The position numbers were made by a program, and so were the translations under genes. Shown piece after piece: positions 28,084-44,190 of a DNA stretch of 60,249 bases. Position 1 is the first letter of the stretch, and every line of letters begins with the position of its first letter. The notes below the pieces were generated by a model. The model was not told the DNA's origin. It saw nothing but the letters and a program-made list of their open reading frames with translations, and searched no databases. The stretch lies in the NCBI GenBank assembly GCA_903868125.1, contig CAIPUE010000029.1, positions 1-60,249 of the forward strand, read 5' to 3'. Source of the DNA: an uncultured bacterium. Lineage in GTDB: Bacteria > Cyanobacteriota > Vampirovibrionia > Gastranaerophilales > Gastranaerophilaceae.

Positions 28084-29673
28084 TCAATTTTTATCTGCGA
28101 TTTTAGAGGAGTTTTTTTTATGTTGAGATTTAGTTACCGCAATATTAAGCAATGGGATTAGAAACCCTAGTGCAAGTGTCGAGTATAATAATCCTGCAGC
28201 ATGTGCCAAGTTTAATTTCCAAACATTTTTCTTAGCAAATTCTGTTCCCTTCGAAGCAATTTCAGCATGGGACTTCAATGAAATATCGTTCAACCAATGT
28301 TTTAAGCCTGCGCCTGATTTATTTACATTAAAAAGGCTGTCTTGTTTTTTGTCCAATAATTGAGCAACTCCTTTCGACGCAAAACCTCCGAGTACAAGCC
28401 AATTCATAAATCCCAAGTAATCTCTTGTCGTAGATTCTCTAAGTTCTGTCTGATTTTGTGAGGCTAGGAAGCGCCCGACCAAAAGTGATGTATAAACAGT
28501 TTTTATAGCGTTTCCGCTTGTTATCGGACCTGAAAATTCAAGTTTTTTGACGAAATCTTTTGGACTTTTAATTTTCATAACCCCTGCAGCCAACGCAATA
28601 ATCCCGGCACTGGCAAGTAATTTTAAACCTAATAGTTTAGCACCGTTATTTTTTTCCTTTTGAGATTTAAAGGAAGTTTCCTGTTTTTCATCTTTGATTT
28701 TATTATAGTTAATCTCGCCTACAAATGCGCTTGTACCGGTTCGTTTTTTTGTAATTATTCTATTAATATACTGATTTGTAAGCCCGAGAGTAGATGCAAT
28801 AGCCAAAGCACCCAAGGTTTTCACTTTGTTCATTTTTTGAAGCTTTTTGAATGCCGAATCTATATTTATTGAATTATTTGTGAAAACATCTTTACCCATA
28901 TCATAAACATCTCTGATTATATTCTTCAATGACGAATTTAGTGTTTTTTCATCAAGTTTTATATTAACCGAATTGTCAATTTTGAATGCGTTTGTAATTC
29001 TATGTTCAATTATTCCCAAAATTTGTTTCGCATCATCTGCATGGATATTTTTATCTTCAATGATTTTGCTCAAAGTTGTTATTATTTGTTTTTCGCTTTT
29101 TAAATTATTCTGAATATTTTTATAAGCAGTATTTTTCCAATTAATATTATCCCATTTAGGACTATCTGCCCATTCGATATTTTTCCAATTTATATCTTGC
29201 CAAGCAAAAGTCTTCTTATTTTCAATACCCGAAGCATTGAAGAAAACATTTGAAACATATTTTTCAACATTGTTACCGCTTTTATCCCAAGAATGTTTTA
29301 AAAGATTTAGGCTGTCGTTTATTAGCCAAGACTTAGGGTTTATTTTTGTTTCAGGCTCGACAAATTGATTATATAAATTTGCAATTCCTTTTGCAATATA
29401 TCCAGCTGAAAGACAAGCAATAAAAGTTCCTGTCAATTCCCTGAATAAAGTTTCTGCGCCTGCATATTTATTTCGCTCTTTTGTATCGATGTAAGTTCTT
29501 GGAATCACCATCGCGAATACGTCGACCAACGCCGCATTCACCATAGAGTTTGTGTCAATAGTAATAAGCGCCTGCGTTAAAGCTCCGTCCAACGGGCCTC
29601 CAAAACTTGGTTGTGTATTATTTGTGCTATTTTTATTTTGCATTGAATGCTTTTTGCTAATTTCGACTTTCAT
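28084..29673 (-). CDS. Unknown membrane protein, 529 aa, F-G-G motif
   Basis: I do not recognise a named family. The N-terminus is polar with QPSFGGPLDG (Phe24), followed by hydrophobic segments near 45-60, 83-100, 285-300, 350-365, 420-440 and 495-515 (LLYSTLALGFLIPLLNIAV). The middle, residues 130-250, is soluble and charged. Similarity in layout to the 437-aa product at 7111-8424 suggests one superfamily. AGGGA lies 5 nt before the ATG. Only about 20 nt separate this site from an upstream terminator, so expression must depend on read-through. Confidence 0.78.
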   Translation of the reverse strand: MKVEISKKHSMQNKNSTNNTQPSFGGPLDGALTQALITIDTNSMVNAALVDVFAMVIPRTYIDTKERNKYAGAETLFRELTGTFIACLSAGYIAKGIANLYNQFVEPETKINPKSWLINDSLNLLKHSWDKSGNNVEKYVSNVFFNASGIENKKTFAWQDINWKNIEWADSPKWDNINWKNTAYKNIQNNLKSEKQIITTLSKIIEDKNIHADDAKQILGIIEHRITNAFKIDNSVNIKLDEKTLNSSLKNIIRDVYDMGKDVFTNNSINIDSAFKKLQKMNKVKTLGALAIASTLGLTNQYINRIITKKRTGTSAFVGEINYNKIKDEKQETSFKSQKEKNNGAKLLGLKLLASAGIIALAAGVMKIKSPKDFVKKLEFSGPITSGNAIKTVYTSLLVGRFLASQNQTELRESTTRDYLGFMNWLVLGGFASKGVAQLLDKKQDSLFNVNKSGAGLKHWLNDISLKSHAEIASKGTEFAKKNVWKLNLAHAAGLLYSTLALGFLIPLLNIAVTKSQHKKNSSKIADKN

Positions 29674-29702: not shown

Positions 29703-29747
29703 TTAAAAAGAAGCCCGTAAGTTCAAACGAGAAATTACGGGCTTCTT
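29703..29747 (-). terminator. Attenuator terminator of the 529-aa gene
   Basis: On the minus strand a 13-bp perfect stem (AAGAAGCCCGTAA / TTACGGGCTTCTT) is followed by TTT. It ends about 20 nt before the Shine-Dalgarno of the gene, leaving no room for a promoter in between. CCGTAA in its 5' arm (29735-29740) can alternatively pair with TTACGG (29778-29783) in the upstream short ORF. Confidence 0.82.
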
Positions 29748-29764
29748 AAAATTTTATGCTATAT

Positions 29765-29845
29765 TTAACACAAATAACCGTAAAATCCCTGAGGAATTTT
29801 ACAGCAACAACATATATTGTTTGATTTGCTATTTTTAATTTTCAT
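29765..29845 (-). CDS. Candidate 26-aa leader peptide with four consecutive Cys codons
   Basis: On the minus strand, ATG to TAA, 26 codons. It starts MKIKNSKSNN, then codes I-C-C-C-C-K (Cys codons TGT TGT TGC TGT at 29801-29812), and ends in a Cys after a Tyr/Gly/Phe-rich stretch. A purine-rich GAAAG lies before the ATG and a TTGACA promoter upstream. Immediately after the Cys run, GTAAAATTCC (29793-29802) and GGGATTTTAC (29780-29789) form a 10-bp hairpin with a 3-nt loop. The layout is that of an amino-acid attenuator leader. A free Cys-rich metal-binding peptide is the alternative. Confidence 0.6.
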   Translation of the reverse strand: MKIKNSKSNNICCCCKIPQGFYGYLC

Positions 29846-29869
29846 TTTTAACTTTCTTGTCTAGTATTT

Positions 29870-29900
29870 ATATTAAATAAGAAACAAGAAAAAATGTCAA
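29870..29900 (-). promoter_or_regulatory. Promoter of the Cys-leader transcript
   Basis: On the minus strand, TTGACA (29895-29900), then an AT-rich -10 region (TTTAATAT, 29870-29877) at 17-19 bp spacing. The start is expected near 29864, about 20 nt before the leader ORF. Confidence 0.62.
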
Positions 29901-32108: not shown

Positions 32109-33218
32109 TTAATCTTCTTTTAATATCTTAAATACAATATTTACCAACTGTCTCGCTAAACATTTTCTTGCGTGTCTTGGCGTTTTTCCTTCTTGTAGCT
32201 TCTTTTCGTAATATGCAGTTGCTATTGGATTGTACCGCTTTTGAGCAATGCTAAGAGAATAAAAGGCGCTGTTTAATATTCGATTTCCACCTCTATTATT
32301 CTTTTTCCTTGTTGTTTTCCCACTTGAACAATCTATTGGAGCAACTCCGCAATAACTTGCTAATTTTGCCGGTGTTGTGATTTTACCTTTGGTTTCCGTA
32401 TAAATTGTACTGGCTGTAATGTATGATATTCCTTTTAATTGCATTAATTTCTTCGCTTTTTGGGGTGTTTCTTTTTCAATTTCTTTTTCTATTAATTTTA
32501 TTCCATCCAGTACTTCTTTTAATATTTTTCCTTGAGTTCTGATAATAATATCATCACTGTTACTCAAGTAATTTACTGCTTTTTTAGTATCTAATTTCTT
32601 AAATGGAAGTTGTTCACCACGAGTAAAATACAACATTTTAATGAAATTTGTTGTTTTAGTTTTTTGTTTTACCAATGCTTTTCTAGCAGATAACTTTTCT
32701 TTCAATTTAACGGTTTCAAAGGAAACTTTTTCTAAATTAGAAGTATTTGCGAATATTGAAAGAGGATGCGGAAAAATCCAAAAAATGACAGTTTTTTGAG
32801 ATTTTTCAAGTCCGACCTTGGAAGTGCTCGCACCCATACCAGCTGCGGGATAGCCGGTGGTATGGGTGCGAGCCGGACAAGGGAGATTGCGAGAAAAATT
32901 CCCAATTTTTCCGCAAGCTCAAATAACCTTTGCATCACCATAGTCATTTTTAGGTGAAGCGACTTTTAAAGCACCTCTCCAGTTTTTAGTAAGAAGCGGG
33001 TTGATTTCATATACTTCGCAGCCGTTTTTAATTAAATGGGCAGTAAAAGCTCTTCCAAAGCAATAAGCTCCTTCAATAGCCCAATGAGCTTTTCCTGCCC
33101 ATTTAATTGCTTGATTAAAACCATTAGAATTAGTTTTAAACTCTTTGAATTTACCATCACAATAACAAGCGATAGTATCTTTGTGTGTGTCAACACCTAC
33201 CAATTTTTGCGTGTTCAT
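32109..33218 (-). pseudogene. IS110-family transposase, split by an inserted repeat
   Basis: The N-terminal DEDD half (32923-33218) has GVDTHKD, AIEGAYCFGRAF and KNDYGDAKVI. The C-terminal half (32109-32760) has the transposase_20 region TPAKLASYCGVAPIDCSSG and a basic tail. Between them a 162-bp palindromic insert adds a TGA after KVI. Joining 32760 to 32923 restores an open frame (DAKVISIFANTSNLEKV), so the break is exactly one insertion. IS110 enzymes use a DEDD RuvC-like domain plus a catalytic Ser and, in studied members, a bridge RNA. Confidence 0.88.
32761..32922. mobile_element. MITE-like palindromic element, copy 3 (162 bp, GC-rich centre)
   Basis: Ends GCGGAAAAAT (32768-32777) and ATTTTTCCGC (32905-32914) lie inside AGAGGATGCGG and CCGCAAGCTC flanks. 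The centre holds a 14-bp perfect stem, CTCGCACCCATACC (32827-32840) / GGTATGGGTGCGAG (32859-32872), nested in GTCCG/CGGAC. The centre is much richer in GC than the surroundings. A possible 2-bp AA target duplication flanks it. No ORF inside, so it would move only with help in trans. Confidence 0.85.
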
Positions 33219-42297: not shown

Positions 42298-44190
42298 CTA
42301 TTGAATTTCTCTTAACTGTTCAATTACATCGCCGTTATTTTTGGAAAATTCGTTGCCGCGGGCTTCAATTGCCAGACGCAAAATTAAAGGTAAATTAAGT
42401 GCTTTATTTGATTTTAAATTATTACAAAAAACTTCTTCAAAATTATTTGGCAACCTAAGACTCCAATTTTCATCGCCGGAAGTCCCCGGACGGTTGTAAA
42501 CATCTTTTATCCCAAAGTAATCAGGAAAGAAAATTTGAATATTTTCCGCTTTGCAGGCAAAAAGTTCAACCAATTTTATTTGTGCTAAAAAGTCAGCATC
42601 ATGAGTTAATTTTACGATAATATCATCTTTATTTTCTTCATCAGGAAATAAATCTTCAACCAAATTTTTGGCGTGTAAATAGCCTTCGTGAGTATTAATC
42701 AAATCCTCCGCCCACATTGAAATCGGTCGGTTGTCATGAGTACCGACCATTACCCAACTGCGATTTTGAATATTTTTGCAACGATAAGGATGCTCAGACA
42801 TTTCAGGTACAACAAATTGTGTCAGCTTCATACCCTGTAAATCATATTTAGCCATAACAGCAGCAACAGGATTTGTCAAAGTCCCCAAATCCTCGCATAC
42901 AATGGAGTCTTTATTTAATCCCTCTTCTTTTGCAGCATCGATGACTATTTTTTCAATTAATCGTCCGTAAAGCCTAACTTGTTCATCACTAATATTTTTG
43001 ACCCTAGCTTCCTTATCAGCCCTAACATCAAAATTTAAATCATCCATCGTCGGGATAGCGAATTTTGATAATTCAGGATTTTCAGGAGATGAATATAGTC
43101 GACCTGCCCCTTCTTCCACAGTAGGCTTATGTCCTTTTTTATAAACCCAAGGATCAATAAGTCCGACAATATGGTCAATTCTTACGCCACCGGGGTTTTC
43201 TTTAAACATTTTTTTAAATAGGGCTTTCATTAAGACCCCGCCTTCGCCGAGCGAACCGTCTTCGTTGTAAAGTTTTTCGGGATTAATCACAGGAAATCCC
43301 CATGCTTGACCGTCGGCAGAAAAATAATCCGGCGGGCAACCCAAAAACCAGCCTTTTAAAAATAGTGATTGATAAGCCCAACAATCTCTGTCTGAAAATG
43401 CAACCTGTCTATCTGCAATCATCTTAATCCCTTTAGACAGCGCATATTCTTTTGTAGCTTCAATTTGAGTATGTGCTACAAATTGGCAAAACGCATAAAA
43501 ATTAATTTCATCGGAGTATTTTGCTTCAATTTCATTAATTCGCTTTCCAAATTCCATTTTTTCTTCGATAGATTTGGGGTTAAAAAGATTTTTATCTGTC
43601 TTTGTACCCCAAAGTGGCCAGTAATCATTATTATGTTCAATGGAAAGTGCTTCATAAAGAGCATCTTTATCCAGCCAAAAACTGTTTTCGCGTTTATATT
43701 TTTCAAAACTCTTTTTTAAACCATTTAACTTTAGTTTTTTAAAACTTTTAAAAGCCTCTCTTAATGCGTTGTCCTGAGCATCGCAAATGTAGGAATAAGA
43801 AGTTTTAGCTAAATTTTTATTCGGATTATTTTCAACGATTTCGTCAAAAGTTTCTCCCGATAAAATATTACCCCATTTGTCAGTAGTCAATTGTTTTAAA
43901 TCAATGAAAAGGGGATTATTTGAAAAAATTGTGCCTGTGTAAGGCGACGAATCGAAACATTTTGTTTTACCTGCAGGTCCCAACTGAATTACGTTGAAAA
44001 TTCCCGACAAAAAATCAATAACTTTTTTGCCTGCAGATGAATTTGCGGTTCCAAATCCTGTGTCTTCACCTATTTCAGAAGGAAAACTATTTGAATGAAT
44101 AATAAGCGCAAGATTTTTTTTACCAAGAATTTTTAAAGCTTCTTGAATGGTTTTTAGCGTTGCACTTTTATCTAATAACTTACAACTCAT
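42298..44190 (-). CDS. malQ: 4-alpha-glucanotransferase (amylomaltase)
   Basis: A GH77 enzyme that disproportionates maltodextrins or helps glycogen turnover. The 630-aa protein has the nucleophile region GGVRIDHIVGL, the acid/base Glu in IVCEDLGTL and the third Asp in VGTHDNRPISMW. Its N-terminus is somewhat unusual for the family but complete. It is divergent from dnaA. No other glycogen gene is in the window. Confidence 0.9.
   Translation of the reverse strand: MSCKLLDKSATLKTIQEALKILGKKNLALIIHSNSFPSEIGEDTGFGTANSSAGKKVIDFLSGIFNVIQLGPAGKTKCFDSSPYTGTIFSNNPLFIDLKQLTTDKWGNILSGETFDEIVENNPNKNLAKTSYSYICDAQDNALREAFKSFKKLKLNGLKKSFEKYKRENSFWLDKDALYEALSIEHNNDYWPLWGTKTDKNLFNPKSIEEKMEFGKRINEIEAKYSDEINFYAFCQFVAHTQIEATKEYALSKGIKMIADRQVAFSDRDCWAYQSLFLKGWFLGCPPDYFSADGQAWGFPVINPEKLYNEDGSLGEGGVLMKALFKKMFKENPGGVRIDHIVGLIDPWVYKKGHKPTVEEGAGRLYSSPENPELSKFAIPTMDDLNFDVRADKEARVKNISDEQVRLYGRLIEKIVIDAAKEEGLNKDSIVCEDLGTLTNPVAAVMAKYDLQGMKLTQFVVPEMSEHPYRCKNIQNRSWVMVGTHDNRPISMWAEDLINTHEGYLHAKNLVEDLFPDEENKDDIIVKLTHDADFLAQIKLVELFACKAENIQIFFPDYFGIKDVYNRPGTSGDENWSLRLPNNFEEVFCNNLKSNKALNLPLILRLAIEARGNEFSKNNGDVIEQLREIQ

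Follow-up and report, generated by a model that had tools for sequence, protein, structure and literature searches.

A predicted cysteine attenuator, apparently recoded once to serine, upstream of a membrane-protein gene family of Gastranaerophilaceae

The leader region of the 529-aa protein gene

The window, by which we mean the whole 60,249-nt stretch of DNA analysed, carries on its minus strand a gene for a 529-aa protein, preceded by a promoter, a short leader ORF with tandem Cys codons and a series of RNA segments with alternative pairing partners (Table 1). The promoter, leader ORF, hairpin and terminator claimed in the initial annotation were each found at their minus-strand coordinates. 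The promoter of the leader has 11 of the 12 consensus bases; a mechanical scan returned no match there because it demands an A at position 2. The run of four Cys codons occupies codons 12–15 of the ORF. No good Shine-Dalgarno (SD) sequence was found before the leader ORF in the window; many relatives have AGGA or AGG.

Table 1. Coordinates of the attenuator region and the regulated gene in the window.
Feature	Position	Strand	Basis
Promoter: TTGACA (29900-29895), 17-nt spacer, TTTAAT (29877-29872)	29872..29900	-	Sequence
Leader ORF MKIKNSKSNNICCCCKIPQGFYGYLC, stop codon included	29765..29845	-	Orthologous leaders in 133/138 loci
Regulatory codons, four tandem Cys: TGT TGT TGC TGT	29801..29812	-	Sequence
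Segment 1, starting inside the last Cys codon	29793..29803	-	Fold; two-sided compensatory changes in Cys-type relatives
Segment 2, partner of segment 1 or segment 3	29778..29789	-	Fold; covariation
U-rich spacer 3' of segment 2, UUAUUUGUGUU in the window	29760..29777	-	Conserved in alignments
Segment 3, terminator 5' arm; 29740-29729 pairs with 29789-29778	29729..29745	-	Fold; covariation
Segment 4, terminator 3' arm, with T run	29705..29721	-	Fold; covariation
Regulated gene, 529-aa helical membrane protein of no known family	28084..29673	-	Family and structure searches

The hairpin of segments 1 and 2 (1:2) is formed by 29803-29793 with 29789-29779 (−15.4 kcal/mol, z −5.2), confirming that it begins in the last Cys codon as originally proposed. 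By itself, this hairpin resembles a terminator in a mechanical scan. The terminator (3:4) extends over 29745-29710 with the T run next to it (−20.3 kcal/mol), and ends upstream of the SD of the regulated gene without including it. The alternative 2:3 pairing had been described as a stem of only 6 bp and the weak point of the model. It in fact consists of 6 bp (UUACGG:CCGUAA), a 2x2 internal loop and a further 4 bp (GGGA:UCUC), with a duplex energy of −13.8 kcal/mol, and the stem is normal in the relatives. In the window sequence taken alone, this pairing is only modestly above chance, as shuffling the segment 1-2 region gave an equally good duplex in 8 of 200 cases.

Among the 741 short ATG ORFs of the window, two encode four consecutive Cys residues (CCCC), and the other one (pattern match 42857-42868) is a short frame without attenuator architecture. 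A genome-wide scan for TGYTGYTGYTGY gave 23 places, with a leader-like ORF and attenuator architecture only at the present locus, and in one scan of the genome's contigs the sole return was a near-identical locus. Rfam gave no match at gathering score over the whole window. The window also holds cysE (serine O-acetyltransferase, TIGR01172, E 5e-76) at 226-708 on the plus strand, about 29 kb from the attenuator, and an IS110-type transposase gene or fragment (PF02371) at 32109-32837 on the minus strand, about 2.2 kb upstream of the promoter.

The 529-aa protein is helical, with about five hydrophobic stretches; the copy in the window contains a single Cys. Neither Pfam nor NCBIfam assigned a family to it or to 64 orthologues, and a sequence search of the PDB gave chance-level matches only. 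Foldseek comparison of an AlphaFold2 model (pLDDT 87) with the PDB and viral structures returned no match under E 0.3. VIA-align of the model reached a Z of at most 4.7, and no transporter fold was recognised, although the protein may still be a transporter. The family, which has no known function, is present as several paralogues per genome, often in tandem pairs and with an N-terminal FKG/SFxG motif (for example L182 (G000:C8), L014-L031 and L183-L201).

Conservation and covariation among orthologues

The gene was searched for in 59 relatives and in two sets of 383 genomes, one from the same family and one from the order. An orthologue is present in about one-third of the family genomes, and 138 orthologous loci (identity 39–99%) were compared. 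The initial annotation would have been refuted by a lack of conservation at such loci, which was clearly not observed: automatic detection identified a Cys or Ser run within a leader ORF in 133 of the 138. Three further loci have a leader by eye. The five that escaped automatic detection comprise L097 (GTG start and CCCC), L173 (CC), L139 (a damaged Cys leader), L180, which ends at the contig edge, and L102, which shows no leader. The leader peptides vary widely, and yet the run stays in frame behind the ATG, at the same position as the Cys codons of the window in every detected leader.

An exact TTGACA lies upstream of 126 of the 133 leaders at a near-constant distance (median 74 nt to the run), the promoter has at least 10 of 12 consensus bases in 126 of the 133, and a terminator was detected between leader and gene in 128 of the 133 loci. 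In both Cys and Ser types, the stop codon is located inside or just past segment 2, so that a terminating ribosome would cover this segment, as trp-type attenuation requires. In contrast, 47 paralogues (below about 40% identity) from the same genomes have neither leaders of this type nor strong terminators (0 of each). The attenuator is a trait of one subfamily of the protein. Its conservation in relatives dispels the concern that the architecture in the window arose by chance.

The helices were examined in an alignment of 45 Ser-type sequences (A2) and one of 36 Cys-type sequences (A3). In A2, pairing holds in 92% of the cells of the 2:3 helix, where 16 cells show two-sided compensation against 3.7 in shuffles (0/500 as high), and in 99% of those of the 3:4 helix, with 21 two-sided cells (0/500 shuffles). 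Sliding the partner by one column lowered pairing in A2 to 54–63%. In A3, the 1:2 helix is paired in 93% of cells (10 two-sided, 0/500 shuffles) and the 2:3 helix in 96% (16 two-sided, 0/500 shuffles). The 3:4 helix of A3 reaches 90% with 29 two-sided cells once the partner column is moved by one, reflecting an alignment offset. The slid controls remained below the true pairings in two-sided compensatory cells. In Ser-type loci, the 1:2 hairpin is paired in 79% and its covariation is weak. Matching triples of segments 2, 3 and 4 illustrate the coupled changes (CGGGACUU/AAGUCCCG/CGGGACUU; CGAGACUU/AAGUCUCG/CGAGAUUU; CAGAGCUU/GAGCUCUG/CAGAGCUU). Compared with dinucleotide shuffles, the 2:3 duplex energy has a mean z of −2.8 in 61 Cys-type loci and −3.3 in 67 Ser-type loci. 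The conserved regulatory codons and covarying segments for which the initial annotation suggested testing orthologues are therefore present.

Between segments 2 and 3, the Ser-type spacer AUUUUGAUGUGUAG (A2 columns 44-58) is strongly conserved. This stretch lies mostly 3' of the leader stop codon and looks like a hairpin-dependent pause signal for the polymerase. Pausing of RNA polymerase is a possible role of the U-rich spacer that follows segment 2.

Cysteine-biosynthesis genes behind the same element, and the change to serine

We built covariance models of the Cys-type element (R1) and of the Ser type (R2). R1 matched before other genes in three genomes, in all cases with CCCC leaders and the same helices. 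At two of these loci, L223 (G025) and L270 (G030), the attenuator is followed by a cystathionine gamma-lyase gene and a cysteine-synthase-like gene (mccBA-like). At the third, L209 (G152), it is followed by a TIGR00027 methyltransferase gene and then a cystathionine gamma-lyase gene; the SAM-dependent methyltransferase, between the Cys attenuator and the lyase, is encoded at L209:1618-2478. Such cysteine genes are the expected targets of a cysteine sensor. The extra matches of R2 were weak and had no Ser runs.

In G025, a DtxR/MntR-like gene precedes the attenuator, with cysK beyond it on the opposite strand, and the lyase, the synthase and a GDSL hydrolase follow in this order. Five loci have the DtxR-like gene before and the GDSL hydrolase after, as in G025, with the 529-aa gene between them instead. 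The shared flanks indicate that the 529-aa gene takes the place of a cysteine-biosynthesis operon downstream of the same switch; these neighbours are absent in the window itself. The proposal that cysteine is the signal thus gains independent support from the mccBA-like operons behind the same element, but it does not extend to the whole family, since about half of the orthologues read serine. Judged solely by its regulation and synteny, the 529-aa protein probably has a cysteine-supply or cysteine-sparing role.

The DtxR/MntR-like regulator, which adjoins many Cys-type attenuators, has a very Cys-rich C-terminus (CCCPEP...CKNCNGGCCCSKHS in L223/L261) and is found at L261:4084-4647 and in 28 orthologous neighbourhoods. 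It is possibly a second regulator of cysteine or metal supply. Two further genes often adjoin the Cys-type gene, and only this type, upstream of L009, L064, L138, L164, L172 and others. From recognising their sequences we take them to be mnmA, at 11 Cys-type loci and in mostly divergent orientation, and bioB, at 12 such loci; the products of both would be sulfur-using enzymes. Their adjacency may reflect synteny alone.

The run consists of Cys codons in about half of the loci and of Ser codons, up to ten of them, in the other half (68 loci). In a phylogeny of 135 orthologues, the label changes a single time, as compared to 45 times with shuffled labels. When the tree is rooted with 16 paralogues, the Ser loci group as a single clade (SH-aLRT 98) within the Cys type, and serine is therefore the derived state. 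The Ser runs contain TCC 205 times, TCA 131, TCG 21, TCT 12 and AGY 9. TCC accounts for 54% of the Ser codons in the runs against 7% in the regulated genes, and AGY for 2% against 28%.

This UCN preference agrees with observations in B. subtilis: when serine is scarce, ribosomes are slowed at UCN codons, and AGC and AGU do not respond (PMC3862929). The B. subtilis sinR system shares this codon behaviour, including the slowing on Cys codons, but its codons lie inside a repressor gene, without a leader peptide or terminator (PMC3862929). Serine starvation slows ribosomes at Cys codons too, serine being the cysteine precursor (PMC3862929), and this may have offered a simple route for the switch from Cys to Ser. 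With Ser codons in the run, mainly UCC and UCA, the same switch would read charged tRNA-Ser in this clade. In six genomes (G251, G283, G299, G308, G372 and G409), a Cys-type copy of the gene coexists with a Ser-type copy, suggesting that the two have separate roles and that their signals are kept apart.

For genome content, we chose cysE and serA for testing. Of 78 genomes examined that carry the gene, 76 have cysE, which does not separate Cys-type from Ser-type. Full-length SerA (TIGR01327) is encoded by 80% of the Cys-type genomes (47/59) and 31% of the Ser-type genomes (18/58); of the family genomes that lack the 529-aa gene, 60% (156/261) have it. The association of SerA with leader type (Fisher p = 1.2e-7; stratified by genus p = 0.0016) is partly phylogenetic, because the Ser-type genes make up a single clade, and concerns this one marker, as serC_1 (TIGR01364) is rare in the group and absent from most genomes. 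The Ser-type genomes are also compatible with serine routes other than SerA. A bolder reading, to which we give slightly less than even odds, is a history in which the attenuator was recoded from cysteine to serine in step with the loss of de novo serine synthesis by its hosts, keeping its RNA switch and its target. The target would be a new membrane-protein family that obtains these amino acids or their precursors, interchangeable with cysteine-biosynthesis genes behind the switch.

Proposed mechanism and alternatives

The comparison established how the element is built, that it is conserved with covarying helices, that its residue was switched, and that cysteine-biosynthesis operons share it. 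In our interpretation, held with a probability of roughly 0.86, the element senses charged tRNA-Cys by trp/his-type, ribosome-mediated attenuation of transcription. We infer the stalling, the read-through and the physiological signal as follows. With ample cysteine, the ribosome would pass the four Cys codons to the stop and cover segment 2, so that the 3:4 terminator would form and transcription would stop upstream of the 529-aa gene. Under cysteine shortage, the ribosome would stall on the Cys codons and cover segment 1; 2:3 would then pair, no terminator would form and the 529-aa gene would be transcribed. Induction on stalling would make this gene part of the cell's response to cysteine shortage, most likely in the acquisition of cysteine or a precursor, or in sparing.

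Like the trp/his attenuators (Yanofsky; layout in PMC1183508), the element combines a leader ORF bearing tandem regulatory codons with 1:2/2:3/3:4 alternatives, an intrinsic terminator, a stop codon near segment 2 and a possible pause signal. Every feature of trp/his-type attenuation that can be assessed from sequence is present: the short leader ORF with tandem codons in 133 of the 138 orthologues (predicted ORFs), the intrinsic 3:4 terminator before the gene, the 2:3 helix exclusive with 1:2 and 3:4 with covariation in both types, the stop codon positioned for coverage of segment 2, and the 1:2 hairpin starting at the regulatory codons in the Cys type, a feature that is weak in the Ser type. 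Unlike those attenuators, the element controls an uncharacterised membrane protein, uses Cys (or Ser) codons, and is lineage-specific without an Rfam match.

The nearest described systems differ in other ways. uORFC-8-2, upstream of cysS in Rhodobacterales, also has tandem Cys codons in a uORF and an intrinsic terminator, and read-through is proposed when charged tRNA-Cys is low (PMC8632094). It belongs to a different class of bacteria, and it has two Cys codons, near codons 14-15, a cysS target and two stems, with no covarying third pairing reported (PMC8632094). We rejected identity with it, as the present gene is not cysS, has no family match and follows a run of four at codons 12–15. Actinobacterial, including mycobacterial, poly-Cys leaders share the Cys run in a leader ORF and cysteine-responsive operon control (PMC1262725; Canestrari et al. 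2020, cited in PMC13236596). They have no conserved terminators (PMC1262725), precede cys operons or cbs, and are described as translational (PMC13236596). The present element, with its conserved intrinsic terminator, was not assigned to this class. A literature search of limited extent found no report of the element.

These precedents bear on whether the leader acts through translational coupling or by sequestering the SD, as for mycobacterial poly-Cys uORFs, with an incidental terminator. Poly-Cys leaders do precede actinobacterial cys genes without conserved terminators (PMC1262725), such leaders are described as translation attenuation (PMC13236596), and UCC runs resemble an anti-SD sequence. 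Given the terminator in 128 of 133 loci, the covariation of 3:4 and 2:3, and a terminator that ends before the SD rather than including it, we consider this mode very improbable. Slightly less credible still is a decorative leader ORF, with an RNA-only or protein-bound terminator/antiterminator and chance Cys or Ser triplets. The terminator-like look of the 1:2 hairpin and the conserved spacer after segment 2 would suit it; however, the run remains in frame after the ATG while the peptides diverge, its shift from UGY to UCN keeps no pairing role, and the bias among synonymous Ser codons is strong.

A real switch could also sense general nutrient or stringent stress through the first amino acids to be exhausted, serine and cysteine, with the protein acting as a general starvation factor. 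The increased ribosome density on Cys codons under serine starvation, serine being the precursor of cysteine (PMC3862929), and the change from Cys to Ser in one clade are in line with such a sensor. On the other hand, the same Cys element precedes dedicated cysteine-biosynthesis operons, and the six genomes with both a Cys-type and a Ser-type copy suggest that the signals are kept apart. We therefore regard a general stress sensor as unlikely, and return to a specific attenuator reading charged tRNA-Cys.

The analysis confirms and extends, at the level of sequence, the assignment of a conserved cysteine attenuator that was naturally recoded to serine once and shares its regulon with cysteine biosynthesis. 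The cysteine attenuator is well supported and has a complete series of covarying helices, in small-genome bacteria for which Rfam holds no such element. It also represents a rare natural case of a nutrient sensor that changed its amino acid through recoding of the leader peptide, so that comparisons among natural variants can serve to test the rules by which regulatory codons are chosen. An uncharacterised membrane-protein family thereby gains a testable physiological role, in the supply of cysteine or serine.
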